The notes beneath the pieces were generated by a model. That model was not told where the DNA came from. It did not search any database and saw only the letters and a program-made list of their open reading frames with translations. A DNA stretch of 64,000 bases, from assembly GCA_026545225.1 (NCBI GenBank), contig CM048849.1, positions 56,377,836 to 56,441,835 on the forward strand, in the 5' to 3' direction. Made by a program: the position numbers and the translations under genes. Positions within the stretch are counted from its first letter, which is position 1, and each line of letters begins with the position of its first letter. This stretch comes from Cornus controversa (taxonomy: Eukaryota; Streptophyta; Magnoliopsida; Cornales; Cornaceae). This document shows, in pieces, positions 8,784 to 60,822 of this stretch.

Positions 8784-9044
8784 TAGGGGTGCACAAAGAA
8801 CCGTCGGAACCGAAACCGGAACCGAGGGGAACCGTACCGGAACCGTGGCTACGGTTCCGGTTCCGGTTCCTAAAATTAGGAACCGTTACCAACGATTCCT
8901 GTTCCGATTCCAGGACCAGTAGAACCGTACCGGAACCGAAATCGTTGGGGGTAACGGTTCCTTGGAACCGGAATCGGAACCGGAACCGTTTTATATTAAA
9001 TATGTGTATATATATATATAATATAATAACTATATAATATATAT

Positions 9045-10733: not shown

Positions 10734-11178
10734 TAATATATATATATATACATTACATATAATAATTATATATAATGTATATATATTATATATAATAACT
10801 ATAATATATGATATTATAATTATTATATATAATATATATACATTATATATAATTATTATATGTAATGTATATATATATATAATATAATATAATAATTATA
10901 TATATATATAGGGTGCCATTTTTAAATTGTAGGTTTCACATTTATTTAATGAATATATATATATATATTTTGTATTTTCAAGCTTCATAAAAAAAAATAA
11001 ATAAAAAAATCCCAAGGAACCGCGGTTCGGAACAGGAACCGAACCGAGAACCGCGGTTCGGTTCATCACGGTTCCAACCTCTAACGGTTCCGGTTCCGAA
11101 AATCAGGAACCGTTGGTAACAATTTCAGTTCCACCAAGAACCGTGGGGAACCGTACCGTGTGCACCCCTAATCACGAG

Positions 11179-19556: not shown

Positions 19557-19765
19557 TTTAGTAATGAAGCAATAGCATGCATGTCTCACGAGGTTAATAA
19601 TGACAAGAAATTTAGATGACAAATGGGGTCCACCCCATTGACTCAATTTTTTTTTTCTCTCTTTCTTTGTTTTACATTTATGGGGTGGACCCCATTTGTC
19701 ATCTAAATCTCTTGTCATTATTAACCTCGTGAGACATGCATGCTATTGCTTCGTTACTCCTAAAT
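19557..19765. repeat. Inverted repeat (foldback) of ~85-bp arms
   Basis: The left arm (about 19557-19645), with GCAATAGCATGCATGTCTC and GATGACAAATGGGGTCC, is the reverse complement of about 19677-19765, with GGACCCCATTTGTCATC and GAGACATGCATGCTATTGC. The spacer is a T-rich tract. Further direct copies of the right arm follow at 19850, 20025 and 20830. The arms resemble nothing coding. Confidence 0.75.
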
Positions 19766-20165
19766 AGGGGTGGCAATTCGTGTTGTATTCGTGTCGTGTC
19801 GATGGAAATTAATCGCGGACTCAATTTTTTCTTTCTTTCTTTGTTTTACATTTATGGGGTGGACCCCATTTGTCATCTAAATCTCTTATCATTATTAACC
19901 TCGTGAGACATGCATGCTATTGCTTCGTTACTCCTAAATAGGGGTGGCAATTCGTGTTGTATTCGTGTCGTGTCGATGGAAATTAACCGTGGACTCAATT
20001 TTTTCTTTCTTTGTTTGTTTTACATTTATGGGGTGGACCCCATTTGTCATCTAAATCTCTTGTCATTATTAACCTTGTGAGACACGAATGCTATTGCTTT
20101 GTTACTCCTAAATAGGGGTGGCAATTCGTGTTGTATTCGTGTTGTATCGATGGAAATTAATCGTG
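19640..20165. repeat. Three tandem units (~174-178 bp) that include the left end of a hAT MITE
   Basis: Units begin at the GACTCAATTTTTT word at 19640, 19818 and 19992. Each ends in TAGGGGTGGCAATTCGTG plus ~50 bp, the left end of the MITE at 20113. Only the third unit runs on into the whole MITE. The array therefore arose after MITE insertion, by tandem duplication that re-copied only the MITE's first ~55 bp. Units differ by a few substitutions. Confidence 0.85.
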
Positions 20166-20757
20166 TCAGAGACCCTTAACACTAATCCAACCCGTTTATT
20201 AAACGTGTTATTCGTGTCAACCCGTGTAACTAGTTTAATAAACATATTTTATAATGACACGACTTGTTTAATAACCTTTTTAATCCGTTTAACTTATATC
20301 ATATGAATTTCTCCACTTTTTAAAATCTCTCTGAAGATCATATAAAAAATAGAGTACATATCAATACATAAATCCTAAAATTAAACTATATTATAAATTT
20401 TGTATCTATATATAAACTCAAAAATATACTAAGGTGATTCAACAACTGAAAAAATACCATATTTATGGCTACATCAGTCATGTAAACAAACAAATAGATT
20501 ACAAACAATTGCAATATATATAACTATGTATATATAAATTTGTATAAAACCATAATATATGAATAACTCATGTCATAATCGTGTTGTAATCGTGTCGTAA
20601 TCGTGTCACGGGTTAGACAGGTTAAACCCAAATCAAATTAAATTTTTGCATGTCGTGTTTGTGTCGACCCATTTATTAAACGTGTCGGTTTACGTCAAAC
20701 CCAAACCCGCTTAATTCATGTCGTGTTGTCGTGTCGTGTCCAATTTTGTCACCCCTA
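20113..20757. mobile_element. hAT-type MITE with GTGTCG-rich ends
   Basis: The ends TAGGGGTGGCAA and TTGTCACCCCTA form a near-perfect terminal inverted repeat. The flanks are CTCCTAAA (20105-20112) and CTCTAAA (20758-20764), an 8-bp duplication that has lost one base on the right. A sister copy of the target near 20915, GTTACTCCTAAAGGAGG, is uninterrupted and confirms the site. 645 bp, no ORF of note. Subterminal CGTGTCGTGTCG and AACCCGTTTATTAAACGTGT repeats are present. Confidence 0.85.
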
Positions 20758-20938
20758 CTCTAAAGGAAGAAGATGAAAATTAAAATCATATAAGTGGAGA
20801 AGATTCAATTTTTTATTTCTTTCTTTTACATTTATGGGGTGGACCCCATTTGTCATCTAAATCTCTTGTCATTATTAACCTTGTGAGACATGCATGCTAT
20901 TGCTTCGTTACTCCTAAAGGAGGAAGATAGAAATTAAA

Positions 20939-20970
<32 letters not shown>

Positions 20971-20972
<2 letters not shown>

Positions 20973-22069
20973 GAGTGCTTAAGCAACTGCCCTTGCACAG
21001 TCGCATGATTGGTGAAAATTAATCACAAAAATGGAATGTTTTTCATTAATAAATGTTCTACTTTTTCATTAGTCAATATATCCTTCTAGTTCTAAAGTAT
21101 TTACATTGGTGCCATCAACAAACAAATAAAACTATTTATAAAAGAAAAATATGATAAGTATATAAAAGAAAAATACGTTCTTTAATTCAATTAACCATAA
21201 TTACAAAATTTTAAAAATTATATAAGAAATGATTATAATAATGAGATGTGAAACTTTTGTTGAACTTTTGTGTCTTTTGGGTGTTGTTGATTATTAATAA
21301 GCAATGGTTGTGTCCTTTGTAAGAGAAGGAAACATTTAGAAATATATTAATAACCATATTTAATTTAGAAGGTATTGACTCATATAACAAATAATATAAA
21401 TATAGGAAAAAATATATAAATATTATAATAATGTGAAATATTTGAGCATTGTTGTAAAAAAAAAAACTTTTAAGAAAAAGAATTAAAAAACGTTTAAGAA
21501 TACAATTATTAATGATCAACGTTTCTGTCCTATGACAAGAAAAGAAAATGTTTAGGAATATATTAATAATCATATTCAATTTAGAAAGTATTAACTCATA
21601 CCAAAAATAATATAAATATAAAAATTAAAAAATGTATAGAAAAAATAAAAAGCCTCACACTTTTAGCAGATAATAATAATAATAATAGATAGATAGATAG
21701 ATATAGATATAGATAGATATAAGAGTCACATGTATATATTTATTACTTTAAAAATATGTTCTTTAATTCAATTAACCATAATTACAAAATTTTAAAATTA
21801 TATAAGAAATGATTTTAATAAGTACATAGATTATTAAAAATATTTAAAAGCAGGACAATATAAAAAAATATTAATAAAAATATTTTAATACTTTATATAA
21901 ATAGTTTTATTTGTTTATTGATGATACCAATGTAAATACTTGAGAATTAGAAGGTATATTGATTGATGAAAAAGTATAACATTTATTACAAGAAATTATT
22001 TAATTTTTGTAATCAATTTTCACCAATTAGTGGAGCGATTATGCAAGGACAGTGACTTCGCTAACACTC

Positions 22070-23165: not shown

Positions 23166-26100
23166 ATGAGTTGTAGCAAAAAAAAGACAGTGATATCTCT
23201 CACCATCATCATTTACTATCTACGAGTCGTATTGTTCCTATTGATAATGGAAACAAGATCGGCTGCCTCTCATTCTTATTCTTATTCTATGGTGAAGCCC
23301 AATTGTCAAGAGAAATGTGGCAACGTGAGCATTCCATATCCATTTGGTATAGGGAAAGGATGTTACCTGAACAAGAAGTTTGAAGTCACATGCATTAATG
23401 AGTCAACTCCATTTTCCGGAGGTCAAGTGTTCCAGATCTCTTTGGATCATCACTATGTGATTAAAGAATTTGGGGCTTCTGTTCTGTGTCACAGCCAATC
23501 CGATGGAGGATATCCCTACTGGATATATTATAATTTGGACCACCAATTCCTTATCTCCCACACCAAAAATAAGTTCGTAGTCCTAGGATGTGATGTCTTT
23601 ACTTATATCACTGAACTTAGAGGTGTAGAGTACATAAGTGGTTGTGCATCACTTTGCTATAACAAAAGCAGCGACGGCCTTTCCGTCCCTCCATCTCTTG
23701 ATTTTGATAATAATAAGTCTTCTTGCTCTGGCATTGGTTGCTGTCAAACAAGTCTTCCCAAAGATATTGGCGCCTTCGATGTGCGCAGCATTTCGCTCAA
23801 TACATATGGACGCCACTGGACCTCCAAGCTATGTACCATTGCTTTGATTGTTGAAAACAACTTCACAGAATTCAGCAACTTCAACCTCTCGGCTATTACT
23901 GAGTACCGTTCCCTTCGTGGTGGCCCAACCGTGCTTGACTGGGCAATTAGTAACATCTCTTGTCATGAAGCTCGCACAAGACAAGACTATGCATGTGGTC
24001 CAAACAGTAATTGCATACACTCTAATAGCAGTTACGGCATAAGATATCGATGTCGTTGCTATCAAGGATACCAAGGGAACCCTTACCTCCAAATTAATGG
24101 ATGCCAAGGTACCTAACATATATATATATATACTACTTTATTTATTCGGCTAATTAACTGCATATTTATTTATTTATTTATTTGGTTTGTATCAACAATT
24201 AATTAATGCTTGTACGGTAGTATGCTAGCTCGGGAAAGGAATAATTAACACAGATTACCAACTTATTTTGAAAAAGAAAAATATTATATATATACTAACT
24301 TATTTTTTAACATAAAACCACAATTAAGCTAGTTGAATATTTCACACTAGTTTAGACCTCTCAACCGATCGGATTTAAACCTGAATTGGCTTGATCCGAT
24401 TTAAATCCGATAAAAATATATTCATCTTGATATGATCTAATAACCTAATGGATTATATAATTTATATAGTATTGAATACATATTAGATTTTTTAGTTTAT
24501 CGGATATTCGATCTGATAATCTGATCTATTAAAAAGTTTATTTTTTGATAAAGTTTTGAAAATAAATTTAAAAGGGAGAGAAAGACAAAGAAAGTAGGAA
24601 CGGAAAAGGCGAAGAAAATAGATATTTAATTCTTAATTAAAGAAAAAAACAATAAAGAATAAAAAAAATAAGTAGGACTAAGAAAATAATTAAAAAAATG
24701 AAAACAAATTTGATAAAATTAAGAGTTCCAATTTATATACCTCATCTAATATTTGGTCAGATGAGGTAATTAATAGATCGGATCAACTGTAAGTTTTATC
24801 CAATTTGTTAATTTAATGAATTATCGAACTCGAATATTTAACGAATTATTTACTTAGATATTCAATCCATATCTTAGTTATTAGATGGGATTCGACTGAT
24901 TCGTTAACAACTCAGTTGCTCTGTTTTTGAGCTTTCTTTTGCTGTCGCCAGTTTAATTTGTTTGTAAGCATTTTGGCTTGTTTGCTTTATTGATTGGGGG
25001 CTCTAATGCTCCATTGTTGGCTTTACTCGGTTTGTCCGCTTTTATATGATTCTCTTTCTTATTATAATTCCGCCCTTAATTTATGATTTTGTTTTCCAGG
25101 AAGGAAAAAGAAAAGGAATGAATTTATTTGAACATTTTATACTAAATAGTAAATATACAAGTTTTCTTATTTTATTTTATGTTTTTTTTCTTCTTTTGGT
25201 GTCAAAAGATATTGATGAGTGCAAAGACCCAAAAATGAATACTTGCCCAAAGGACGCTTTTTGCATCAACACAAAAGGTGGCTACTCCTGCACTTGCCGA
25301 CCTGGTTATCGCAGCATTCATATTGGAAATGGAATTGAATGCATACCTCAGAGAGGATCATTAGCTGTAATATTTATTCCTTCAGGTACATACAATACAA
25401 TCCTTTGCATTCCATTTTACCCTCCTCTCCATGAAATTGTGCTTACCTTTGCTACACATGCAGGAATTGGAATTGCTATTGGTTTTTTGCTCTTGATTGC
25501 TATCGGTTTATGGTTGCACCGCAAGCTTGAGAAAAAACGGAGACACAAAATAAAACAGAAGTTCTTTAAAAGGAATGGAGGCTTGCTATTGCAACAACAA
25601 ATCTCTTCCAATAAAGATAGTGTTGCGAGAATAAAACTCTTGGCAACAGAAGAGTTGGAGAAGGCAACAGACTATTTTAACAGCAGTCGATTTCTTGGCA
25701 AGGGAGGACTTGGTTCAGTTTATAAAGGAATGTTATCAGATGGAAGCATAGTAGCTGTTAAGAAATCTAACATAGTTGATGAAAATCAAGTTGGTCAATT
25801 CATTAATGAAGTCATTATCCTCTCTCACATAAGTCACAGGAATATTGTGAAATTGTTAGGTTGCTGTTTAGAGACTGAAGTTCCAATATTAGTGTATGAA
25901 TACATCTCGAATGGCACCCTCTCCGACCATCTTTATGACGAGGGCTATGCTTCTATGTCTTGGGATAATCGTTTGAGAGTTGCAAGGGAAATTGCAGGAG
26001 CACTTGTTTATTTGCACTCGTATGCTTCTACACCTATCTTTCACAGAGATATAAAGGCTAGCAACATACTGTTGGATGAAAACTATAGAGCTGTAGTGTC

Positions 26101-40677: not shown

Positions 40678-43449
40678 ATGGCGTCACTGCAAATATTTCA
40701 GCACTACAAGTCAGCAGTAGTAGTAGTATTGATCATCTTCCATTTACTATTACTACTGCTACCACTACTAGTAGTAGTAGTAAAGGCCGAAACAACATCA
40801 TCAGCAGCAGCCTCTATTAATGATGATTCTTATTCTATGGCGAAGTCCAATTGCCAAGAGAAATGCGGGAACATAATTGTTCCTTATCCATTTGGTATAG
40901 GAAAAGGATGTTACCGGAACAAGATGTTTGAAGTCACTTGCAATGGGTCAAATCTCTTCTATTGGAGAAGCAACCAAGTGTTTTCTATCTCGGCAGATGA
41001 TGTGAGTCTAATTAATGGTCCAGTGCAAGTGTTGCATATCTCGATGGATGATCATTATGTGCGTGTAAATGGTCCGGCTGTTGTTAATTGTCATGAAAAG
41101 ATATAGGCTGTTGTTAATTGTCATGTTGTTAATTAGGACGCTATTGGACTAACCACCCTTGTAAAATTGCTTTCATTGCTGAAAACAACTTCACACAATT
41201 CAGCAAATTCAACCTCTCTGGTATCACTCATGCCCGTGTCATTCCTAATGGTGTCCCACTAGTGGTTGACTGGGCAATTGGTAACAACATCTCTTGTGAT
41301 GAAGCTCGCACCACAAGAGGACATCAACACTATGCATGTGGCCCTAACACTGACTGCATAGACTTCAATCCTACTTACGGCAGCAAAGCATATCGTTGTC
41401 GTTGCTCACAAGGATACCAAGGCAACCCTTACCTCCCCAATGGATGCCAAGGTAACCACTAGTACTACTTTCTTTATATATATTTATATACCTGCATGTT
41501 GGTTTTGTCTGTTAACTAGCCTTCTGTTTTTTTTTTTTTTGCTTTATCTGGGGTTCTACTGCTTGTTGGACTTAATTATTATGAAAAAAAAGAAAAAAGA
41601 ATTGATTATCACTCGCAAAGTGGGGCTTTAACCCGGTTTTGAATCTATTTTTTTCTGGCTGGGCCTAATTGGTCTTCAAATGTACGCCAAAGGCATTCTG
41701 CTTAGCCATATGGGCTCCCTTGAGCTATAGCTACATCTCAGCCCAATTGTGATTTCTCATACGGTACATAATTTACATCTATACAAATTGCTTTAATTTT
41801 TCAGGAAAAAAATTAATTATTGGATTGAAAATTTATTACATCTCAAAAACTATCCTAATTCAGTAGTTAACCAAAAGTGTCTTTCTTGCTTTAAAATGCT
41901 CTCCAATTTTAACAGCTTAGTGCAGGCCTTATTTCATACGGAGTAGTTTTTTTTGTGTAACAAAACAAAATAGAAGTAATCTTTGAGAATCCTTTTGTTA
42001 TACCATTTACCATTTAAGATCTATGATCTTCAAATTTGAACAATTACATTTTTTTTATATTTCTTTTTGGCTCAAAAGATGTTGATGACTGCAAAGGTCC
42101 AAAAAAGGATATTTGCCCAAATGACGCTGTTTGCAACAACACAGAAGGTAGCTACTCATGTATTTGCCCAGCTGGTTACCACAGTATTCAAGGAAATGGA
42201 ATTGGATGCATACCATACCAAGGGAGACGATCATTAGTTGTAATGATTTCTTTAGGTACAATCTTTTGTTATTTTCTCTTACCCTCCTCAGTCCTCTCCA
42301 TGAAATTAATTGTTATTAACTTTTCTGCATATATATGCAGGCATGGGAATTGCGCTTGGTGTTTTGGTCTTGCTTGCTATTGGTTTATGGTTGCACCGTA
42401 AATTTGAGAAGAGAAGGAAGAACAAAATCAAACAGCAGTTCTTTAAGAGAAACGGAGGGTTGCTATTACAACAACAGATCACTTCAAGTAACCAAAGTGT
42501 AGTGAAAACAAAACTCTTTATAGCAGAAGAGTTGGAGAAGGCCACAGACAATTTTAACGAAAGCCGAGTCATTGGCAAAGGAGGCCTTGGTATAGTTTAC
42601 AAAGGAATGTTATCAGATGGAAGTATAGTGGCGGTTAAGAAGTCTAACATAGTTGATGAAAATCAAGTTGGTCAGTTTATTAATGAAGTTATTATTCTCT
42701 CTCACATAAATCACAGAAACATTGTGAAATTGTTAGGTTGTTGCCTAGAGACTCAAGTTCCAATACTAGTGTATGAACATTTCTCGAATGGCACCCTCTC
42801 TAGCCATCTTCACGATGAAGGCTATGTTTCGATGTCTTGGAACAATCGCTTGAGAGTTGCTGCGGAATGTGCAGGAGCACTTGCCTATTTACACTCATGT
42901 GCTTCTACAGCTATCATTCACAGGGACATAAAGTCTAACAATATACTATTGGATGAAAATTACAGGGCTGTAGTGTCTGACTTTGGACTTTCAAGGTTTG
43001 TACCCCTTAACATGACTCATTGGACGACATTGGTCGGGGGCACATTTGGTTACTTTGACCCTGAGTACTTTCGATCAGGGCAACTTACAGATAAAAGTGA
43101 TGTTTATGCGTTTGGCGTAGTTCTTGCTGAACTTTTAACAGGAAAAAAAGCTGTCTCTTCTAATAGATCTTATAAAAGTCTTGCACTTCATTTTCGATCA
43201 TCAATGAAACAAAATAGTTTGTTTAAAGTTCTAGACACAGTAGTTGTCAATGAAGGCCAAGACGAGGAGATTCATGTTGTTGCTACCCTTGCAAAGAGAT
43301 GCCTAAAATTGAATTCAAAGAAAAGGCCAAGTATGAAAGAAGTGGCAGCGGAATTGGACCAATTGAGAAGGATACAAGAGAACAACCGCTACTCGGTGAG
43401 TGAAAGGTCCTTCTCTTGCACAATTGATGCAGTTGAAAGAGAAAGTTAA
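40678..43449 (+). pseudogene. WAKL B: receptor-like kinase gene with a damaged ectodomain exon
   Basis: Sister of WAKL D. Exon 1 (40678-41451) starts normally (signal peptide; CQEKCGNIIVPYPFGIG) but a net 283 bp are missing relative to D. The gap at 41096-41135 is filled by local copies of nearby bases, the frame meets a stop at 41104-41106, and the rest of the exon continues in another frame. This removes most of the WAK cysteine region. Exon 2 (42079-42255; DVDDC in place of DVDEC) and exon 3 (42341-43449) remain fully open: TM, GKGGLGIVYKG, VAVKK, HRDIKSNN, DFGLSR, DPEYF all present. A full receptor cannot be made from the genomic frame. A transcript from downstream starts could encode a TM-kinase only. 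The clean kinase frame implies the damage is young. Confidence 0.88.
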
Positions 43450-43590
43450 TAAAATGAAATTTTTTTTTTTTTTTATAGTCAAATTCCAAGCTACTATTTG
43501 ATGTAACGAAGTTTCTTTCGTTTTTCTTCTTCTTTTTTTTGGTTTGAATAACTGCGATGACTGGCTATCAACTTTGTTCATTGTGTAGTT

Positions 43591-43736
43591 CAATAGGCCT
43601 TTTTTCTTTCTTTATATTTTCCAGTTGCTTTCATTCCTGGACCACAAGAGATTAATAAAGTAAATGGTTATATACCATTTAACTCTCATAATTGCGTCAA
43701 TATATTCCACATTATTTGTGGCAATTCCAAACTAAT
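43591..43736. repeat. 146-bp host direct repeat, left copy, bracketing an LTR element
   Basis: Runs from CAATAGGCC to CCAAACTAAT. The same 146 bp recur at 46070-46215 with two substitutions. The pair brackets the element at 43735-46069 exactly: the right copy begins at the base after the 3' LTR, and the left copy ends at the outer edge of the 5' LTR, where host and element share the bases AAT. In WAKL D the homologous flank is present once and uninterrupted (59573 onward). Confidence 0.9.
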
Positions 43737-46069
43737 ATTTTATTTCTTTTAGTTTTTCCTTTCAGAGGTAGGTTAGTCGTTGTTAGGGCCTATATATAGG
43801 CTTTTACGGATGTAATTTGATTTACATGCTTTACGACTGAATAACAGAAAACTTCTCCAAAATTCACATGGTATCAGAGCAGGTTTGATTTTGGCCCTAA
43901 GAGTTTAGGGTTTAAACCCTAAACCCTAAAAGAAAATCAAAAATTCGAAAAGAAAATCGCAGATTCTTCTTGAACCTGATTGCAAATTGCAGCGCATCTT
44001 TGTTCTACAATAATTGCAAGATCGCAGGCATAATCACAGTATCGCAACTCTTTGCTTCTTTTGTTTGTCTTCTCAACTACCGGAGAGGCAGGGGCGATAG
44101 CAGCACCACCTGCCGGAGTAGTAACCGCCGCTGCAGCAGTACTGCCTCCACCAGAGCCAACGTTCATGATGAGATCTTCAATATTCCTCTTCTCCAACAG
44201 CTTAGCAAAGAGACTCGGCCAATACGACTCTACTTTCACGTTTATTGCTTTTACCAATGTAACAATCTTCTCCGCCGTGATTTCGATGTCATCATCGTGA
44301 AGGACCAGTTTGTAAGATGTAGAGCCAGTCCCTGTTCGTCCATGCCATTGCAGTCACTATTTCTCTTCGCCATTGCAATCGCAGTCTTGTCCTTAATTAT
44401 AGCAGTGTTCGACATCTCGACTCTCACAAATTATTCACAATTGATCCTCAGTTTCGAAATTTATTTGCAATAAGTTCACAATTAGTTAACATTTGTTTGC
44501 TAGCTCCCCTGTTTGTCACATCTTAGTTTAAACCTAGGTGTTGGTAACAATCTGTTTGCAAGTTCACAATTCAACATAATCACACAAACCCTAAGTTCAT
44601 CGCAGCCTAGTCATCTTTCTTCTCCTTTGTTCAAATCACACATCTACCTCAGCTTTTCTGCCAATCCTAATTTGAAACTGCAATTGCATTGTGATGTCAT
44701 CACAATCCCTTGTGTTCGCAACTTCTCTCTCTGTGTTCACAACAACTTTCTCTCTCTGTTCGCAACATTGTTTGCATCAAATCGCATTGCAATCGATTGT
44801 ATCACATCATCTTCTCTTCTCTCTCATCTCTGTTTGACTTTGCATCACCAATTTCTGTTCGCTCAATGTTTCTATTGGATTCTCTCTTCTTCAATTTCTT
44901 TTAGCCCTAATTGCATTGTTCCTGGCAGCTTGAAGTTCATTACACCCTATCGCAATCGCATCTCAGTTTGTGTTTGTTTGCAAAATTACTACATTACAGC
45001 GATTTCTCCCTCTATATTCTCTTTGCATTACTGCAACCCTTGTTCTCTTACTTTGACGATTCGTAATTGCCTCTTCTCCAGTGATTTCTTTTGCAACAGG
45101 ATTTTTCAGTTTTGGGTTCTTTGCATAAGAGAAGAACGGAAGTGTCACATTTCAATTTTCTTTGGCTTCTTGCAAAGACAACATCAAGATGAAATTGCAA
45201 TTTGTTTGCATATATATTTGCAAAATTTGCAGCAAAATCGACTTTGCATCATTTTTCTGATCTTGGTTTATTGGTTCGCATCACATTGGGGAATTGTAAT
45301 TGTTTGAAATTGCATCAAGTCACAATTGTGTCAATTTTCTGTTAGTAATCAGTTAGCATTCACACCTTTTTGCAGCATCTTAACTAGCAGCCTTGCCCAA
45401 TTGATTGTTTCTCTGTTTGAACAACAATCTTGCTGATTCTTTCTATTCCCACAAAGCATCGTTAATTTTGCATCTTCTTCAACCGTGACGCATTGTTTGC
45501 ATCCGGACTTTCCATTTTTTGAATCTCTTAGCATTGATTGCAACAACTCATCGCAACCCATCGACATCATCACACCACGTTTCTTTTCTCTTTTCATTTC
45601 TCAAATTGCAGAAACATTTATGATAGCAGCAACAACTTGTTTGCATCGCATTGCTTCTTCTTCTTCTTCTTCTTTTGTTCAAATTGCATCGCAAAAGCAA
45701 AAATTACAACAGCATCATCGGTCTCACTTCTCTTCTCTCATTTCACAGCATCGTCTCTACTCAGTTTGCATAGCAGTACTAGCTGTTTTGGCAATTTCTT
45801 CTATAGTAACTTGGCACTATTTCTTTATCATATGTATCTTCTACGCAATTCAATTATCCGTTTTCGTTTTCTTTCTTGACAAACTCTCGATGCTTCTCAT
45901 TGTCACATCGTGAGTTTGAGGGAAGGTGTCAGAGAATATTTTATTTCTTTTAGTTTTTCCTTTCAGAGGTAGGTTAGTCTTTGTTAGGGCCTATATATAG
46001 GCTTTTACGGATGTAATTTGATTTACATGCTTTACAACTGAATAACAGAAAACTTCTCCAAAATTCACA
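43735..46069 (+). mobile_element. Non-autonomous LTR retrotransposon (TRIM/LARD-like, Copia-type priming), 2.3 kb
   Basis: LTRs 43735-43868 and 45927-46069 (~134-143 bp, two differences in the shared part). A primer-binding site TGGTATCAGAGC follows the 5' LTR directly (43869-43880; initiator tRNA-Met), and a purine-rich tract GAGTTTGAGGGAAGG precedes the 3' LTR. The LTR has a TATATATAGG core. The 2-kb interior encodes no recognisable gag or pol; it is rich in TGCAATCGC-like words and holds an antisense piece of a ribosomal P1 gene. The structure looks complete for a non-autonomous element. Two LTR differences suggest an insertion of very roughly a million years or less. Target-side repeats are abnormally long (146 bp). 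Confidence 0.9.
44060..44326 (-). pseudogene. Captured fragment of a cytosolic 60S acidic ribosomal protein P1 gene
   Basis: Read on the minus strand, the frame gives [19 protein letters not shown], then [17 protein letters not shown] and [11 protein letters not shown], followed by an Ala/Pro-rich hinge ([19 protein letters not shown]) and a charged [11 protein letters not shown]. This is the order and spacing of ribosomal stalk protein P1 (RPP1): N-terminal dimerisation helices, then Ala-rich hinge. The first ~10 residues and the acidic SDDDMGFGLFD-type tail are absent. It runs antisense to the LTR element that carries it and shows no intron in the ~265 bp. Inference: host transcript capture by the retroelement. 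Confidence 0.85.
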
Positions 46070-46215
46070 CAATAGGCCTTTTTTCTTTCTTTATATTTTC
46101 TAGTTGCTTTCATTCCTGGACCACAAGAGATTAATAAAGTAAATGGTTATATACCATTTAACTCTCATAATTGCGTCAATATATTCCACATTACTTGTGG
46201 CAATTCCAAACTAAT
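46070..46215. repeat. 146-bp host direct repeat, right copy
   Basis: Partner of 43591-43736. The sequence then continues as ordinary WAKL 3' flank (TTTCAACCTATGAG...), as in the flank of WAKL D. CAATA at its start is the expected 5-bp target site. Confidence 0.9.
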
Positions 46216-46324
46216 TTCAACCTATGAGTCTATGACTGATCGATCAAAGCATATCAATTTGTATAAATTAATTAGTACAAAACTAGAAACGGAATCCTAG
46301 TGCAGTAAAGTAATAAAATTAACT

Positions 46325-46359
<35 letters not shown>

Positions 46360-46893
46360 AAGTTTTGATTGAAGTAAAAATTTGAAATTTAGTTTTAGTA
46401 GAAGTAAATTTGGGTAATTGATCAGTTTTAGTTACCTTGTGAGAGAGATGTGATGATTCATTGATAGACAAATAAAAGATGGACTAGTGGCCGTAACAGA
46501 AACAATGGGGTAATGTGTGAATCCATTTGCCATCGATCAGTTGAAGGTAAAAAAAAATAGGCATTTTTTCTTTCGGTACATTGGAATTCTATTCTAGTCT
46601 GCGGACACACAGACTTTCACCGTGCATGATACACGGAGTAATGATGAGGAAGGAAGAAGATAACTTTTCATAGAGTCAAGCAAGAAAGGAGAAGAAAGGT
46701 CTTTAGTTACAGTAGTCTGCCATCTTTTATGACCCAAATCAAGTATATATACACACACACATGTATATCCCTACATCCCTAGCCTCTCAGTTCTAAATAT
46801 ATAGTATTTCGTTTTGTTGGTTGAGGTAGAACATTAATTAAGGGCTTGCTAGCTCATTAATTAATTTGTTCCATCTCTTCAAGTCAAAAATCA
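46216..46893 (+). promoter_or_regulatory. 5' flank of WAKL C with TATA-like box and conserved leader
   Basis: (AT)n at about 46330-46357. From about 46440 the sequence is a diverged homologue of the B/D promoter. A TATA-like TAAATATATA lies at 46794-46803, and GTTGAGGTAGAACATTAATTAA with GCTTGCTAGCTCATT follow. The GGTCAA W-box core kept in B and D reads GGTAAA here. Confidence 0.5.
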
Positions 46894-49709
46894 ATGGCGG
46901 CACTTCAAATATTTGATCAGTACAAGTCAGTAGTTGTAGTATTGATCATCTTCCCACTACTACTAGTAGTAGAGGAGGCAGAAACAAGATCATCAGCAGC
47001 CGTCTCTATTAATAATTATTCTTATTCTATGGCGAAGCCCAATTGTCAAGAAAAATGCGGGGACATGATTGTTCCTTATCCATTTGGCATAGGAGAAGGA
47101 TGTTACGGGAACAAGATGTTTGAAGTGGTTTGCATTGGGTCAACTCTCTTCTATTTTGGAAGCATGCAAGTGTTCCATATCTCAATGGATGATGATGTGC
47201 GTGTAAATGGTCCGGTGCAAGTGTTGCATGTCTCGATGGATGATCATTATGTGCGTGTAAATGGTCCGGCTGTTGTTAATTGTCATGAAAAGGAATCGTC
47301 TTCTTTTCAACATGTAAGTTATCATTCGGAGGGATTGCCGTACCTCATCTCCCACACCAAAAATAAGATTGTAGCCATAGGATGTGATGTCTTTACTTAT
47401 ATCACTGAATTTGAAAGTGCAGAGTACATAAGTGGTTGTGCATCACTTTGCTATAACACAAGCAGGGATGACATCCACGTCCCTCCTTCTCTTAATTTTG
47501 ATAATAACAAGACTTCTTGTTCTGGCATTGGTTGCTGTCAGACTAGTCTTCCCAAATATATACCCGCCTTCGATGTGCGCACCATTTCCCTCAATACACA
47601 GGGACGCTACTGGGCCAACAACCCATGTACCATTGCTTTCATTGCTGAGAACAACTTCACACAATTCGGCAAATTCAACCTCTCTGGTATCACTCATGCC
47701 CGTATCATTCCTCAGGGTGTCCCACTAGTGGTTGACTGGGCAATTGGGAACACCATCTCTTGTGATGAAGCTCGCACGACAGAAGACTATGCATGTGGCT
47801 CTAACAGTGACTGCATTGACTTCAATACTAGTTACGGCCGCATAACATATAGATGTCGTTGCTCTCAAGGATACCAAGGCAACCCTTACCTTTCCAATGG
47901 ATGCCAACGTAACACTAGTACTTTCTTTCTTTATATATTATTATTCAAGATTCTTTAGTTTAGTTGGCCAACCAATATATGTCGAATAATTTATATATTT
48001 GAGTTACATCCTATCTTCTCTTCTCTTCTCTTCTCTTCTTTGGGGATGACTTAATATTATTTAAGGTCTTAAATGAAAAATATAAGAGTGCCCCTTTAAT
48101 CTATAATATATTAATATCAAATTTTAGTTAATAGCATTTATTTAAAAATCGTTCTTATTGAAATTATTCTATTTAATTGGAAGATTTTCTACTAATATTA
48201 AATCTTTTAATTTATTATCAATATTTTTTCATTACCGTGCATAGATATTTGTGAGAATAGAATATGATTTTTGATTAATATTTTATTATTATTTTTTGGC
48301 TCAAAAGATGTTGATGAGTGCAAAGGTCCACAAAAGGATATTTGCCCAAAGGATGCTGTTTGCAACAACATAGAAGGTAGCTACATGTGCATTTGTCGAG
48401 CTGGTTACCACAGCATTCAAGGAAATGGAATTGGATGCATACCCTACCAAGGGAGACGATCATTAGTTGTAATGATTTCTTTAGGTACGTACAATCTTTT
48501 GTTATTCTCTTTTACCCTCCTCAGTCCTCTCCACGAAATTAATTGTTATTAACTTTTCTGCATATATATGCAGGCATGGGAATTGCGCTTGGTGTTTTGG
48601 TCTTGCTTGCTATTGGTTTATGGTTGTACCGTAAATTTGAGAAGAGACGGAAGAACAAATTCAAACACAAGTTCTTTAAGAGAAACGGAGGGTTGCTATT
48701 ACAACAACAGATCACTTCAAGTAACCAAAGTGTAATGAAAACAAAACTCTTTATAGCAGAAGAGTTGGAGAAGGCCACAGACAATTTTAACGAAAGTCGA
48801 GTCCTTGGCAAAGGAGGACATGGTACAGTTTTCAAAGGAATGTTATCAGATGGAAGCATAGTGGCGGTTAAGAAATCTAACATAGTTGATGAAAAACAAG
48901 TTGGTCAGTTTATTAATGAAGTTATTATTCTCTCTCACATAAACCACAGAAACATTGTGAAATTGTTAGGTTGTTGCCTAGAGACTGAAGTTCCAATACT
49001 AGTGTATGAACATTTCTCGAATGGCACCCTCTCTAGCCATCTTCACGATGAAGGCTATGTTTCGATGTCTTGGAACAATCGCTTGAGAGTTGCAGCGGAA
49101 TGTGCAGGAGCACTTGCCTATTTGCACTCATGTGCTTCTACAGTTATCATTCACAGGGATATAAAGTCTAACAACATACTATTGGATGAAAATTACAGGG
49201 CTGTAGTGTCCGACTTTGGGCTTTCAAGGTTAGTACCCCTTAACAAGACTCATTGGACGACATTGGTCGGGGGCACATTTGGTTACTTTGATCCCGACTA
49301 CTTTCGATCAGGGCAACTTACGGATAAAAGTGATGTTTATGCTTTCGGTGTAGTTCTTGCTGAACTTCTGACAGGAAAAAAAGCTGTCTATTCTGATAGA
49401 TCTTATGAAGGTCTTGCACTTTATTTTCGATCATCAATGAAACAAAATAGCCTGTTTGAAGTTCTAGACACACTAGTTGTCAGCCAAGGCCAAGATGAGG
49501 AGATTCATGTTGTTGCTACTCTTGCAAAGAGATGCCTAAAATTGAATTCAAAGAAAAGGCCAAGTATGAAAGAAGTGGCTGTGGAATTGGACCAATTGAG
49601 AAGGATACAAGAGAAGCCATTGATTCAACAGAATAGCTTGGACAACCGCTACTCGGTGAGTGAGAGGTCCTTCTCTTACACAATTGATGCAGTTGAAGAA
49701 GAAAGTTAA
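46894..49709 (+). CDS. Wall-associated receptor-like kinase C (3 exons)
   Basis: Exons 46894-47908, 48308-48484 and 48574-49709 encode about 775 residues. Domains: signal peptide (~1-30); GUB_WAK region (CQEKCGDMIVPYPFGIGEG); WAK cysteine region; EGF; EGF-Ca; TM; kinase. Kinase motifs: GKGGHGTVFKG, VAVKK (Lys ~497), HRDIKSNN (Asp ~593), DFGLSR. The APE-equivalent is DPDYF (E to D, ~639). The ectodomain has a near-repeat, VFHISMDD.DVRVNGPVQ then VLHVSMDDHYVRVNGPA (~95-130). Oddity: the exon 1 donor is AAC|GTAACA, where the other copies have AAG|GTA. This weakens the splice site and changes the first residue of the EGF-Ca motif from Asp to His (HVDEC), a residue that normally helps bind calcium. 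Otherwise intact and probably expressed. Confidence 0.92.
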
Positions 49710-49912
49710 TAACATGAAATGTTTTTTTTTTTTTTATAGCCAAATTCCAAGCTACCATGCCATTTGATGTAATGAAGTTTCCTTCTTTTTTCTTTTCCTT
49801 TCTTTTTTGGTTTGAAATTGAATAACTGCGATGACTGGCTATCACCTTTGATTATTGTGTAATTCAACAGGCTTCTCTCTTTCTTTCTTTCTTTATTTTT
49901 TTTAGTTGCTTA

Positions 49913-49966
49913 CATTCCTGGACCACTAGAGATTAAAGTAAATGGTTCCTATTCAACTCATAATTG
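49913..49966. repeat. 54-bp host direct repeat, left copy, bracketing a second LTR insertion
   Basis: CATTCCTGGACC...CATAATTG recurs at 51791-51844 with one substitution. The insertion between them (49965-51792) shares TG with the end of the left copy and CA with the start of the right copy. This target is the homologous part of the same 3' flank that was duplicated beside WAKL B. Confidence 0.85.
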
Positions 49967-51792
49967 AGATACCCCCAAAAAATTTCGCGCATAATGTGGC
50001 CAGTCTCATACACAAAACCTGGGAGATACATACAACTGGTAGCAACAAGTATAGAATACAAAAGACAAATTAAAATAAATTCTAAAAGCTGAACAGAAAA
50101 TTCCACTGAATTGAAATAACCAATAAATAAATAGTTATATGCCTGGTAATACAATTTGGAAGTCCCGTAACGCAAGGACCCCTTAACCAGAATAAACCCA
50201 AGTTTAAGACTCTAATTTAAAACCAACAACCAAAATCTCCAAAAGAATTCATAGTTTGACCCCTGAATAAGAGTATAGGTTTCTACCCTGTGACCGATAA
50301 AAAGAGATGTCTGCCACAACTAACCCTAAAACTCTATCCTTGCAGTGGAACCTGTCTGAAACCTGAAATATCAACAAAGTGGGTTAAACCCACGAGCAAG
50401 TTCTATCTACTACATCCCAATCAGAGAACCAATATACATACCCTCAGTATAAGGGACACAAAAGAAAACAATAGATTTAACATACAAGCTATTTTTATTC
50501 CAATTTCATGTTTTCAAAACAACAGTCATTAATTATAATATTCCACCAAAATCCTTATTAAGCAAAGGTGATCACATTTCTTAAGTTCAGCAGAAATAAA
50601 CATAACATGAAATAATATCAAGTTTAAGCAATCCTAACATGCCATCATTTAATCTTTTGATACCTTAATAGGTATAGATATATACATACTAGTCATTTCC
50701 TATTTAGTTCTTATTTTTCAGAAGTAAAATCATCTTATACATTGTTCCAACAAACCCTTATCATCCAACAATGAACACATTCTTTAAGTTCAAAATAAAG
50801 AAAACATATGCATACATGTATAGATACCTTATTAGGTATGGGCGATCCTGACACGCCAAATAAAATGTATAGATACCTTATTAGGTATGGGCGATCCTGA
50901 TACGCCGGGCAATCCTTACATGCCAAATAAAATACATAGATACCTTATTAGGTATGGGCGATCCTGACACTCCGGGCAATCCTTACATGCCAAATAAAAT
51001 ACATAGATACCTTATTAGGTATGGGCGATCCTGACACGCCGAGCAATCCTTACATGCCAAAATAAAATGCATAGATACATTCCAATATGCAATACAAAAT
51101 AATAAGGTGCATTATGATTTAATTTGCACAAACCGTTATTTCAAATCATCCAACATTAAATTATCATCATAAGATAAATCGTTCACAAGTAGACTATAAT
51201 CAAGTATTTGATGGGTATTTATATCCTTAAAGAAAATTACATTCAAGTAAATCAAATAACTCAAACATCCATTAAAGAAGTAATTTCCCAATTCAATCTT
51301 CAATGCACCCAAATATATGAGGGAGTCTAAACCTAAATTTTATCTAGGTTTCTGGGCATATTCTACTGCTAATAACCCTATTAAATCATGCTGGAATTTC
51401 CTAGAATTTTTGAGAATTTAAAAAAATATTATTCTAGTAAAAAGAAAATAAACATAATTCGAGGCATACTTTCACAACCAACACAATCACAAGGGAGACT
51501 CATTTTGACATGAAATTTAAAACCCAAGTGCATTTTAATCCTATAAAGTTACCTACATTTTTCTAGAATTTTCTGAAATTTTAAAATATTTTCTAAAAAT
51601 AAAAGAAGGTGAAAATCCAACTTTTAGACATTTTAAAAATAAATTGAACAACAAGGAAAGATTATTTTGAGTTAAAAATTTAAACCCAAGTGTATTTATC
51701 CTCCAGAGAATTACAGTAAAAATTTGGGAATTTTTGGGATTATAAAAGTATTTTCTAAAATTACAGAATGTGAAAAACCCAACTTAAGATCA
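49965..51792 (-). mobile_element. Probable long solo LTR (1.83 kb), family unresolved, likely minus orientation
   Basis: Terminates in TG...CA (TGAGATACCCCC on the left, GATCA on the right). Read on the minus strand it begins with AT-rich, AATTTT-repetitive sequence and ends in a G-rich stretch (TTTTTTGGGGGTATCTCA), an architecture I associate with long LTRs of Gypsy chromovirus-type elements. No primer-binding site or coding domain is present. The assignment rests on the ends and general layout only. It contains the short tandem array listed next. Flanked by a 54-bp, not 5-bp, direct repeat. Confidence 0.5.
50817..51075. repeat. Tandem array (~4 units of 50-68 bp) with a palindromic core
   Basis: Each unit carries ATAGATACCTTATTAGGTAT followed by GGGCGATCCTGA and, except in the first unit, a GGGCAATCCTTACATGCC segment. 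The core ATACCT-TATT-AGGTAT is a 6-bp-arm hairpin. A fifth, isolated core (ATACCTTAATAGGTAT) lies at about 50661. The array is inside the LTR-like insertion. Confidence 0.85.
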
Positions 51793-52294
51793 TTCCTGGA
51801 CCACTAGAGATTAAAGTAAATGGTTCCTATTTAACTCATAATTGCGTCAATATATTCAACATTACTTGCGGCAATTCCAAACTAATTTCAACGTACCTTC
51901 TATGACTCAGTTCGTATAAATTAGTACAAAACTTAAAACGGATTCCAAGGGCAGTGAAGTAATAAAATTATCTTTAAGGAAAAACTTGAATGATCTAAAT
52001 TTCCGAACATTCCTTCTGCAAAAGTGATGACACCCAGGTTTTTTGCTGCTGAGAGCGACATTGGCAACAGCATGACTGTGTCCTGCATTTCTTTGGAAAT
52101 GGATGAGACTAACATTGGCAACAGCATGACTGTGTCCTGTATTTCTTTGGAAATGGATGAGACCAACATTGGCAACAGCATGACTGTGTCCTGCATTTCT
52201 TTGGAAATGGATGAGACCAACCAGGAATACAAATAGATCACCCTGTTGTAGCACCTTTGTGAAAAATCGATTGTTAAGATTCGATGTGACAAAT
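51793..52294. other. WAKL-type 3' flank remnant
   Basis: Matches the flank of WAKL D (59618 onward): GCGTCAATATATTCAACATTACTTG, TTTGTATAAATTAGTACAAAACT-like and GGAAAAACTTGAATGATCTAAAT are shared. The homology resumes after the solo LTR at 52932 (AAATCGAACCTCAA, matching 59913). This is thus a duplicated flank without its own WAKL gene, or the far end of the WAKL C unit. Confidence 0.7.
52058..52222. repeat. Three tandem 54-bp units, open in frame on both strands
   Basis: The unit (ACATTGGCAACAGCATGACT...GGAAATGGATGAGAC) occurs three times with 1-3 substitutions. As 54 is divisible by 3, plus-strand translation gives [18 protein letters not shown] three times within a 70-codon frame (52024-52236), and two minus-strand frames also stay open. 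The repeat is absent from the homologous flank of WAKL D. No family is recognised and I do not call a gene. Confidence 0.8.
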
Positions 52295-56486: not shown

Positions 56487-59426
56487 ATGGCGTCACTCCA
56501 AATATTTCAGCACTACAAGTCAGCAGTAGTAGTAGTGTTGATCATCTTCCTATTACTATTACTACTGCTACCACTAGTAGTAGAAGTAGTAAAGGCGGAA
56601 ACAACATCAGCAGCAGCAGCAGCCTCTATTAATGATTATTCTTATTCTATGGCGAAGTCCAATTGCCAAGAGAAATGCGGGGACATAATTGTTCCCTATC
56701 CATTCGGCATAGGAGAAGGATGTTACTGGAACAAGATGTTTGAAGTGACTTGTAATAGCTCAATTCACTTGTATTTGAGAAGCAACCAAGTGTTCTCTAT
56801 CTGGGCAGATGATGTGAGTCAAATTAATGGTCAGGCGCAAGTGTTGCATATCTCGATGGATGATCATTATGTGCGTCTAAATGGTCCGGCTGTTGTTAAT
56901 TGTCACAATAAGTCGTCTGGAGAATTTTCTTTTCAACATGTAAGTTATCATTCCAAAGGAATGCCCTACCTTATCTCCCACGCCAAAAATAAGTTCGTAT
57001 CCATAGGATGTGATGTCTTTACTTATATCTCTGAATCTCAAAGTGCAGAGTACATAAGTGGTTGTACATCACTTTGCTATAACAAAAGCAGGGATGGCAT
57101 CTACGTCCCTCCTCCTCTTAATTTTGCTCATAATAAGTCTTCTTGTTCTGGCATTGGTTGCTGCCAGACTAGTCTTCCCAAATATATGCCCAGCTTCGAT
57201 GCACGCACCATTTCCCTCAATACGCAGGGACGCTATTGGACTAACCACCCTTGTAAAATTGCTTTCATTGCTGAAAACAACTTCACACAATTCAGCAAAT
57301 TCAACCTCTCTGGTATCACTCATGCCCGTGTCATTCCTAATGGTGTCCCACTAGTGGTTGACTGGGCAATTGGTAACAACATCTCTTGTGATGAAGCTCG
57401 CACCACAAGAGGACATCAACACTATGCATGTGGCCCTAACACTGACTGCATAGACTTCAATCCTACTTACGGCAGCAAAGCATATCGTTGTCGTTGCTCA
57501 CAAGGATACCAAGGCAACCCTTACCTCCCCAATGGATGCCAAGGTAACCACTAGTACTAGCTACTACTACTACTTTCTTTATATATATATATATAGCAAC
57601 TAGTTGCTCTTTTTTGGGGTTTCTTTTCCCTGCTGCATGTTGGTTTTGTCTGTTAACTAGCCTTCTGGCTTTATTTTGCTTTTTCTGGGGTTCTACTGCT
57701 TGTTGGACTTAATTACAGGGCTGTAGTGTCCGACTTTGCCCAATTGTGATTCCTCATACCGTACATAATTTACATCTATACAAATTGCTTTAATTTTTCA
57801 GGAAAAAAATTAATTATTGGATTGAAAATTTATTACATCTCAAAAACTATCCTAATTCAGTAGTTAATCAAAAGTGTTTTTCTTGCTTGAAAATGCTCTC
57901 CAATTTTACAGCTTAGTGCAGGCCTTATTTCATAATTTTTTGTGTAACAAACAAAATAGAAGTAATCCTTTTGTTATACCATTTAAGATCTATGATCTTC
58001 GAATTTGAACAACTTATACTTAATCTACATTTTTTTTTTGGCTCAAAAGATGTTGATGAGTGCAAAGGTCCAAAAAAGGATATTTGCCCAAATGATGCTG
58101 TTTGCAACAACACAGAAGGTAGCTACTCATGTATTTGCCCATCTGGTTACCACAGTATTGAAGGAAATGGAATTGGATGCATACCCTACCAAGGGAGACG
58201 ATCATTAGTTGTATTGATTTCTTTAGGTACATTAATTCTTTTGCTATATATTCTCTTTTACCCTCCGATCCTCTCCATGAAATTAATTGTTATTAACTTT
58301 TCTGCATATATATGCAGGCATGGGAATTGCGCTTGGTGTTTTGGTCTTGCTTGCTATTGGTTTATGGTTGCACCGTAAATTTGAGAAGAGACGGAAGAAC
58401 AAAATCAAACAGCAGTTCTTTAAGAGAAACGGAGGGTTGCTATTACAACAACAGATCACTTCAAGTAACCAAAGTGTAGTGAAAACAAAACTCTTTATAG
58501 CAGAAGAGTTGGAGAAGGCCACAGACAATTTTAACGAAAGCCGAGTCATTGGCAAAGGAGGCCTTGGTATAGTTTACAAAGGAATGTTATCAGATGGAAG
58601 TATAGTGGCGGTTAAGAAATCTAACATAGTTGATGAAAATCAAGTTGGCCAGTTTATTAACGAAGTTATTATTCTTTCTCACATAAATCACAGAAATATT
58701 GTGAAATTGTTAGGTTGTTGCCTAGAGACTCAAGTTCCAATACTCGTGTACGAACATGTCTCGAATGGCACCCTCTCCAGCCATCTTCACGATGAAGGCT
58801 ATGTTTCCATGTCTTGGAGCAATCGCTTGAGAGTTGCAGCGGAATGTGCAGGAGCACTTGCCTATTTGCACTCATGTGCTTCTACAGTTATCATTCACAG
58901 GGATATAAAGTCTAACAACATACTATTGGATGAAAATTACAGGGCTGTAGTGTCCGACTTTGGACTTTCAAGGTTAGTACCCCTTAACATGACTCATTGG
59001 ACGACATTGGTCGGGGGCACATTTGGTTACTTTGACCCTGAGTACTTTCGATCAGGGCAACTTACAGATAAAAGTGATGTTTATGCGTTCGGCGTAGTTC
59101 TTGCTGAACTTCTAACAGGAAAAAAAGCTGTCTCTTCTGATAGATCTTATAAAAGTCTTGCACTTCATTTTCGATCATCAATGAAACAAAATAGTCTGTT
59201 TAAAGTTCTAGACACAGTAGTTGTCAATGAAGGCCAAGACGAGGAGATTCATGTTGTTGCTACCCTTGCAAAGAGATGCCTAAAATTGAATTCAAAGAAA
59301 AGGCCAAGTATGAAAGAAGTGGCAGCAGAATTGGACCAATTGAGAAGGATACAAAAGGACAACCGCTACTCGGTGGGTGAAAGGTCCTTCTCTTGCACAA
59401 TTGATGCAGTTGAAGAAGAAAGTTAA
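56487..59426 (+). CDS. Wall-associated receptor-like kinase D (3 exons)
   Basis: Exons 56487-57543, 58050-58226 and 58318-59426 (GT-AG, phase 1) encode about 780 residues. Signal peptide with a Leu/Val-rich core (~15-40); GUB_WAK region (CQEKCGDIIVPYPFGIGEG, ~60-80); WAK cysteine region (CSGIGCCQTSLP); EGF (YACGPNTDC...CRCSQGYQGNPY); EGF-Ca (DVDECKGPKKDICPND); TM at the exon 3 start (GIALGVLVLLAIGLWL); RD-type kinase with GKGGLGIVYKG, VAVKK (Lys ~511), HRDIKSNN (Asp ~607), DFGLSR (~625) and DPEYF. All canonical residues are present, making D the best-preserved member. Probable role: plasma-membrane sensing of pectin fragments and defence or growth signalling. Intron 1 holds a 28-nt copy of kinase-exon sequence at a deletion joint (57711-57738). 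The intact PPR gene lies convergent downstream. Confidence 0.94.
57711..57738 (+). other. Templated filler: kinase-exon sequence inside intron 1 of WAKL D
   Basis: These 28 bases are identical to 58935-58962 in exon 3 (codons for NYRAVVSDF). Compared with intron 1 of WAKL B (about 41571-41745), D lacks ~170-185 bp exactly here. The left joint shares AATTA between intron and template. WAKL B's own kinase exon differs by one base in this stretch, so the template was D or C. Confidence 0.85.
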
Positions 59427-60822
59427 TAACATGAAATGTTTTTTTTTATAGTCAAATTCCAAGCTACTATTTGATGTAACGAAGTTTCCTTCGTTTTTTT
59501 TTTTTTTTTTTGATCTTTTTTTGGTTTGAATAACTGCGATGACTGGCTATCACCTTTGTTAATTGTGTAGTTCAATAGGCTTTTTTTCTTTCTTTATTTG
59601 TTGTAAATGCTTTCATTCCTGTACCACTAGAGATTAATAAACTAAATGGTTACCATTTAACTCTCATAATTGCGTCAATATATTCAACATTACTTGTGGC
59701 AATTCCAAACTAATTTCAACCCATGAGTGTATGACTGATCGATCAAAGCAGATCAGTTTGTATAAATTAGTACAAAACTAGAAACGGATTCCTAGTGCAG
59801 TAAAGTTATAAAATTATCTTTACAAGGAAAAACTTGAATGATCTAAATATTCCTAACATTTCTTTTAAGGCAAATGTAAGTCCTGAAGAAGAAGTATAAT
59901 CAAGGAAAATTTAAATCGAACCTCAATGCTAGCTTCCAGGAACATCAAGATCTGAGCAGCATGAGGATGCCCCACGGTGCATAGCCAATACGGGAAGGGA
60001 AAATTGAGATGCCGAGATTGTTGAGTCCTGGACCCCTGGTATATGTGCGGATATGGTAAAACTTCAAATTCTTTTATCAAATATTTATGCATATTCATTC
60101 TCATTAAGGGATTTGCCTGCAATGAAATGGTGGATAGTCACTGCAGACGAAAAATGTAACTATGGAGATGATCTATCCTTTTCATAAATTAATATATTAT
60201 AAGGAATACATAATAATTAGTCAAAATGTTGATTCATCACAAAAATAAAATAAAAATAGTCAATTTGTCTATGGCAAAGTAAGATCGAGAATGTGCCTTC
60301 TATATAAATTGTTAGGACAACGTCAGTAAAAAAATTATTCTATACGTTTCAATAGAAATGTGAAACATTTGTCAACAGCATAATCAAAGTTTCATTTTGT
60401 GGTCTTCAAGACAACTAGACAAGTATAGGCTACACACGGGTGGTATAAAAACAAATATCTTACTTCTCCACTGTTATATTTTAGATAGATGACAACATTC
60501 ATCAGAGGGTTCACTGTGGTGTCTTTTAAAAGCTAATTCTGGATCCCAGAGATTCCACTCAACCCAACAAAGCCTTTTTCCATCCTTTAGGAGTCGGCTA
60601 CATGAATCCTATCTCACCACTCCACTCTATCTAAAGCCTTAACTTTAGTCAAACCAATATCCAAGAGATACATCAACTAAAAAAAGCCTAATTTGAAGAG
60701 CAAATTATCACCTTAGAAAAGGAAAATGTAACAGCCCGACTTACCTTGGTTCACTTGCTAACAATACTTTCTCAACCTAATTCTTGCTTTCAAAATCACA
60801 AATGATCAATTGTTGCTCATAA
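59427..60822. other. 3' flank of WAKL D and DNA before the PPR gene
   Basis: The first ~600 bp match the flanks of WAKL A-C and the remnant at 51793-53050. No gene is found. The stretch just before 60823 would be the 3' UTR of the minus-strand PPR gene. Poly-T near 59496-59511. Confidence 0.5.

Follow-up and report, generated by a model that had tools for sequence, protein, structure and literature searches.

An LTR retroelement in Cornus controversa is bracketed by two 146-bp copies of host DNA, and one-ended integration finished by host repair probably explains the duplication. The locus is a clean natural record of an apparent plant-cell response to a retroelement joined at one end only. 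Normal end, trimmed end, overlapping bases and a paralogous empty site can be read together.

The window, i.e., the whole stretch of 64,000 nucleotides analysed here (C5:56377836-56441835), contains repeated wall-associated-type kinase genes. A kinase-domain frame is located at 42310-43449, three more copies of the kinase stretch are found in the window, and a galacturonan-binding domain lies in a related frame at 23166-24116. The retroelement, 2.3 kb long and without long open frames, sits just behind a wall-associated-kinase-like gene, and the 146-bp duplication begins 141 bp past the stop codon of frame 42310-43449. Two further structures were noted in the window. At 9037-10741, inverted arms of 588 nt each are 100% complementary and separated by a spacer of 529 nt, i.e., a recent foldback structure. 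At 19651-20978, a 174-bp unit occurs three times head to tail with one more copy 806 bp further, and this array has inverted 79-nt partners from 19560. The features of the insertion and its empty counterpart are as follows.

43591..43736, + strand: left copy of the host duplication, with the derived base at both differing positions
43734..43736, + strand: AAT, a 3-bp microhomology where host and LTR overlap at the aberrant join
43734..43868, + strand: 5' LTR without its first 8 bp (TGTCAGAG), beginning at AAT
43869..43880, + strand: primer-binding site TGGTATCAGAGC
44075..44308, - strand: captured, spliced fragment of a host gene for 60S acidic ribosomal protein P1, antisense to the element (PF00428, E = 4.8e-13)
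45918..45926, + strand: purine-rich tract before the 3' LTR, its role suggested by position
45927..46069, + strand: complete 3' LTR of 143 bp, TG...CA, reading TGTCAGAG...TTCACA, with its U5 end normally joined to host DNA
46070..46215, + strand: right copy of the host duplication, opening with CAATA
59377..59819, + strand: paralogous empty site behind a tandem kinase-gene copy, with the 146-bp region present once and uninterrupted

An earlier sequence-only reading had reported direct repeats of 146 bp with two mismatches at 43591-43736 and 46070-46215. Our comparison confirmed them, with the mismatches at repeat positions 32 and 125 (98.6% identity, 1.4% difference). The right copy was likewise found to begin at the first base past the 3' LTR, host sequence following directly after the CA end, and its opening CAATA at 46070 would be the 5-bp target duplicated in a normal insertion. 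The repeat is not due to chance, as a genome search with 46070-46315 found the left copy with E = 3.3e-66. This query had six matches in the genome, all on C5; five lie in the window, including the query itself and the left copy, and the sixth about 142 kb beyond the window end. As all six matches lie on C5, the 146 bp neither belong to the element nor form a dispersed repeat. Two paralogs share the base of the right copy at position 32, and two do so at position 125; both differences are hence derived in the left copy. The chance of both changes falling in the left copy is one in four; they are compatible with new synthesis of this copy.

The left copy had been described as ending at the outer edge of the 5' LTR with AAT shared between both. 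The AAT overlap was correct; the edge, however, is trimmed and 8 bp are gone. The intact start TGTCAGAG is found in all eight LTRs carried by the four elements most closely related to this one in the same genome. The AAT match lends weak support to joining by microhomology, at least three bases being matched in 8.6% of simulated junctions. Between the two LTRs, 2 of 135 aligned positions are different (98.5% identity), in agreement with the earlier estimate of about two. At one of these the 5' LTR is derived, since all ten other LTR sequences carry the 3' LTR base; at the other the 3' LTR is derived, nine of the ten others having the 5' LTR base and one a third base.

The element has the hallmarks of an LTR retrotransposon, i.e., direct-repeat LTRs with TG...CA ends (the 5' copy lacks TG, relatives have both), a primer-binding site after the 5' LTR and a purine tract before the 3' LTR. 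We take TGGTATCAGAGC at 43869-43880 to be the complement of the end of the initiator methionine tRNA. Instead of the usual target duplication of 4-6 bp, the window copy has one of 146 bp. Copia elements encode integrase ahead of reverse transcriptase; here, the frames at 44513-45307 and 45485-45913 gave no Pfam match, and this copy of the element has no coding capacity. No matches were obtained with Rfam over 43400-46400 or in a tRNA scan across the window.

Of 18 family elements in which both adjoining internal segments are present, five contain the P1 fragment as an insert. Five elements without the insert were aligned at the insert site, and all showed clean absence. A genome search with the insert returned the five elements and two genes, one on C6, which is the likely source, and a more distant one on C8. 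The C6 gene matches the fragment at 95% over 213 bp in one exon, and its preceding exon, about 3.4 kb upstream, matches at 91% over 34 bp. These exons are joined in the element and the C6 intron of about 3.4 kb is absent; we therefore conclude that the fragment came from spliced RNA.

The duplicated host DNA is single at an empty site. The sequence-only reading had suggested a control alignment with 59480-59760, and this comparison recovered the paralogous site with the 146 bp present once. When the host flanks were joined across the insertion and aligned with 59377-59819, 405 of 455 aligned positions were identical, with no break at the join. This site lies about 16 kb from the insertion and is a paralog of the insertion locus, not its allele; partial flank paralogs are also found at 49660-49966 and 51790-51973. 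At the place of GGTTACC or GGTTCC in the three paralogs, which lack the TATA insertion, each of the 146-bp copies has GGTTATATACC. As this insertion is common to both copies and absent from the paralogs, the duplicate was copied from the insertion locus, its sister or its homolog. The TATA insertion, found in both copies and in none of the three paralogs, rules out these paralogs as donors.

We surveyed the other copies of the family in the same genome for their target duplications. LTR queries of the genome gave at least 41 and at least 43 matches, which are lower bounds because the search scores the best candidates only. A total of 56 LTR matches, added loci included, were grouped by eye into 29 units. 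Six units that were single, truncated or had indistinct ends were left out (C1:114621319, C3:41619300, C4:38969474, C6:57092387, C7:37904560 and C8:2305795), and their flank comparison may cover internal stretches. The 23 units counted comprise 19 with two LTRs, including the window copy, and four solo LTRs.

A 5-bp target duplication with at most one mismatch was found in 15 of the 19 two-LTR units, perfect in 11 and with one mismatch in four. Nine of the perfect duplications were obtained as scripted and two after a boundary shift of 1 bp (C3:58756462, a TA-rich site, and C8:57530418). Among the four with one mismatch, two were obtained as scripted; for the other two (C1:23216698 and C3:76768280) the script had put the start of the LTR in the wrong place, and the duplication was read by eye. 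Three two-LTR units have no target duplication (C1:113202370, C4:31008149 and C9:8239092). Flanks of the four solo LTRs matched at 5/5, 5/5, 4/5 and 3/5 positions. Mismatched left-right pairings reached at least 4/5 in 3 of 506 cases, a control somewhat stricter than the tally, since for several mutated LTRs the ends had been placed by eye.

Long repeats were searched in flanks of about 1.5 kb per side, and of 2.8 kb on the left of C1:1352805. As had been proposed in the sequence-only reading, family copies were thus surveyed for long target repeats, and the window copy alone, i.e., one of 23 units, has a long repeat touching both ends. Four other units have repeats of 21-25 bp, or of 173 bp at 79%, that are separated by at least 72 bp from one end or both and so do not adjoin the element. 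With one case in 23 units with both outer flanks, a long duplication can be ruled out as a habit of the family.

Two relatives showed peculiarities of their own. In C1:1352805-1354195, one of the nine scripted units with a perfect duplication, the truncated 5' LTR starts at LTR position 126, i.e., 33 bp past the first base of its TATATATA motif and near the expected transcription start, and the element is flanked by AAAAT on both sides. A cDNA that began at the start of the RNA may have integrated here; alternatively, the A-rich flanks may match by chance. In C1:113202370-113204509, one of the units without target duplication, a gap of about 17 bp was found inside the 3' LTR, and the outside flank opens with CGATTAA, like the missing LTR stretch.

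We propose the following course of one-ended integration. An integrase from another element would have linked the 3' LTR by its U5 end to the host DNA ahead of CAATA, as in a normal insertion. At the 5' LTR, the U3 end would have stayed unjoined and would have lost 8-11 bp. Its free 3' strand could then have paired through AAT with host DNA 146 bp downstream of the first join, from where a host polymerase would have copied back over the 146 bp into the left flank. Homologous pairing would finally have closed the gap, leaving 146 bp on either side of the element. From the structure we infer a single event, the enzymes involved and the direction of synthesis. As to an autonomous partner or integrase, none was found in the one interval examined, a stretch of 7.6 kb between LTRs on C9 that has no stop-to-stop frame longer than 129 aa.

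One-ended integration is favoured because the U5 end is normal, with the right copy directly after CA, and because the U3 end is trimmed by 8 bp compared with eight of eight intact starts in the closest relatives. It is further favoured by the single uninterrupted copy at the paralogous site, by the TATA insertion in both copies but in none of the paralogs, and by the relatives, which mostly have 5-bp duplications, the window copy being the only one of 23 units with a long repeat touching both ends. In addition, aberrant HIV proviruses have the same set of features, both differences are derived in the left copy, which would be the newly made one, and three bases overlap at the trimmed junction. 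What counts against it is that a later repair event would yield an identical sequence, that the AAT match is weak evidence, that both changes would fall in the left copy by chance one time in four, and that the C9 interval gave no autonomous partner or integrase.

Such a later event is less likely in our judgement, and it is the alternative that we take most seriously. The element would have inserted normally with a CAATA duplication, and a later double-strand break at the edge of the 5' LTR would have been repaired. The left end would have been extended by 141 bp, with an element-free homolog or, via the 5-bp CAATA, the right flank as template, and would have been rejoined to the trimmed LTR through AAT. 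This route predicts the same structure, including a right copy that starts at the LTR end, and a duplicate derived from the insertion locus, and the 1.4% difference between the copies could be allelic. Two separate events would, however, be required, the later of them right at the element's edge, and the homolog route needs an empty chromosome in the same cell. For parsimony we prefer a single event, i.e., one-ended integration, over repair of a later break. The sequence-only reading had offered two explanations, aberrant joining of one end with microhomology 146 bp away and an exchange between chromosomes with and without the element. The former is the best supported and is strengthened by the 8 bp missing from the 5' LTR, a loss that had gone unnoticed; the latter, covered by the later-break route, predicts the same sequence.

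The remaining alternatives are far less probable. The locus lies within a tandem gene cluster, and a tandem duplication of the 146 bp might have come first, with the element landing at its junction. We consider this very improbable, as the paralogous site 59377-59819 has a single copy and as the element would have had to hit the junction exactly and then lose CAATA and the LTR tip via AAT. An assembly artefact, in which empty and occupied haplotypes were stitched together, appears slightly less probable still. The 1.4% difference could then be heterozygosity, but a false join on only 3 bp of overlap together with the loss of 8 bp of LTR would be required, and the 61 contigs of the 772-Mb assembly are of chromosome size. 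Least credible is a pseudo-duplication that arose when the locus recombined with a paralogous copy of the gene, a model discussed in PMC5488345. Paralogous flanks are indeed at hand at 49660-49966, 51790-51973 and 59377-59819; the model is contradicted by copies that are 98.6% alike and contain an insertion absent from the paralogs.

Duplication and insertion had seemed equally old in the sequence-only reading. With 2/146 differences between the host copies and 2/135 between the LTRs, the data are compatible with equal age (Fisher p = 1). The argument is weak, because four changes would also be compatible with a several-fold age difference and because the differences in the left copy would be allelic, and thus no clock, if it derived from a homolog.

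For annotation, the locus is a caution that an element without a short target duplication need not be a rearranged or recombined copy. As a wider possibility, which we put forward tentatively and at somewhat less than an even chance, plants may use the host-completion route of animals for half-finished LTR-element integration. A constant minority of copies would then have one trimmed end and target duplications between tens and hundreds of bp long, and would be overlooked by annotation that demands 4-6 bp. A limited search of the open-access literature found no plant LTR element with a long target duplication.

In its general build the element resembles TRIM elements, which are described as having short LTRs, no coding capacity, 5-bp duplications and exon-only host gene fragments (PMC4717578). 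The short LTRs, the lack of coding capacity, the 5-bp duplications of the family and the exon-only host fragment are shared, and exon-only capture is also known for maize Bs1 (PMC4717578). In contrast to TRIM elements, given there as shorter than 1,000 bp, or 1,172-1,449 bp when carrying genes, the window element measures about 2.3 kb.

Long target duplications themselves are published for HIV vectors and HERV-K loci, and the rarity implied in the sequence-only reading was hence overstated. For HERV-K (HML-2), 451 putative duplications are reported, with eight longer than 10 bp listed, up to 450 bp; two duplications, 250 and 111 bp long, were verified by comparison with empty alleles, and the authors also allow pseudo-duplication by recombination between duplicated regions (PMC5488345). 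Long HERV-K repeats have been ascribed to inefficient integration and compared with Rous sarcoma virus vectors (PMC4422153). As these natural cases are published, the insertion described here is of a known kind, i.e., a natural LTR element between long near-identical host repeats. The HERV-K (HML-2) elements are human and retroviral, however, and pseudo-duplication is contradicted at the plant locus.

HIV-1 integrated with impaired integrase has one normal end and another that is often truncated, usually with short homology to the added DNA, and the commonest outcome is a host duplication of hundreds to thousands of bp (PMC5041404). In the model published for these aberrant proviruses, the outcome on one side of the first join is a duplication (PMC5041404). 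The window element likewise combines one normal LTR end with a trimmed one that lacks TGTCAGAG and with a long host duplication. The HIV-1 cases arose in human cell culture, induced through drugs or mutant integrase, whereas here we find a natural plant insertion, which would carry a retroviral phenomenon over to plants.
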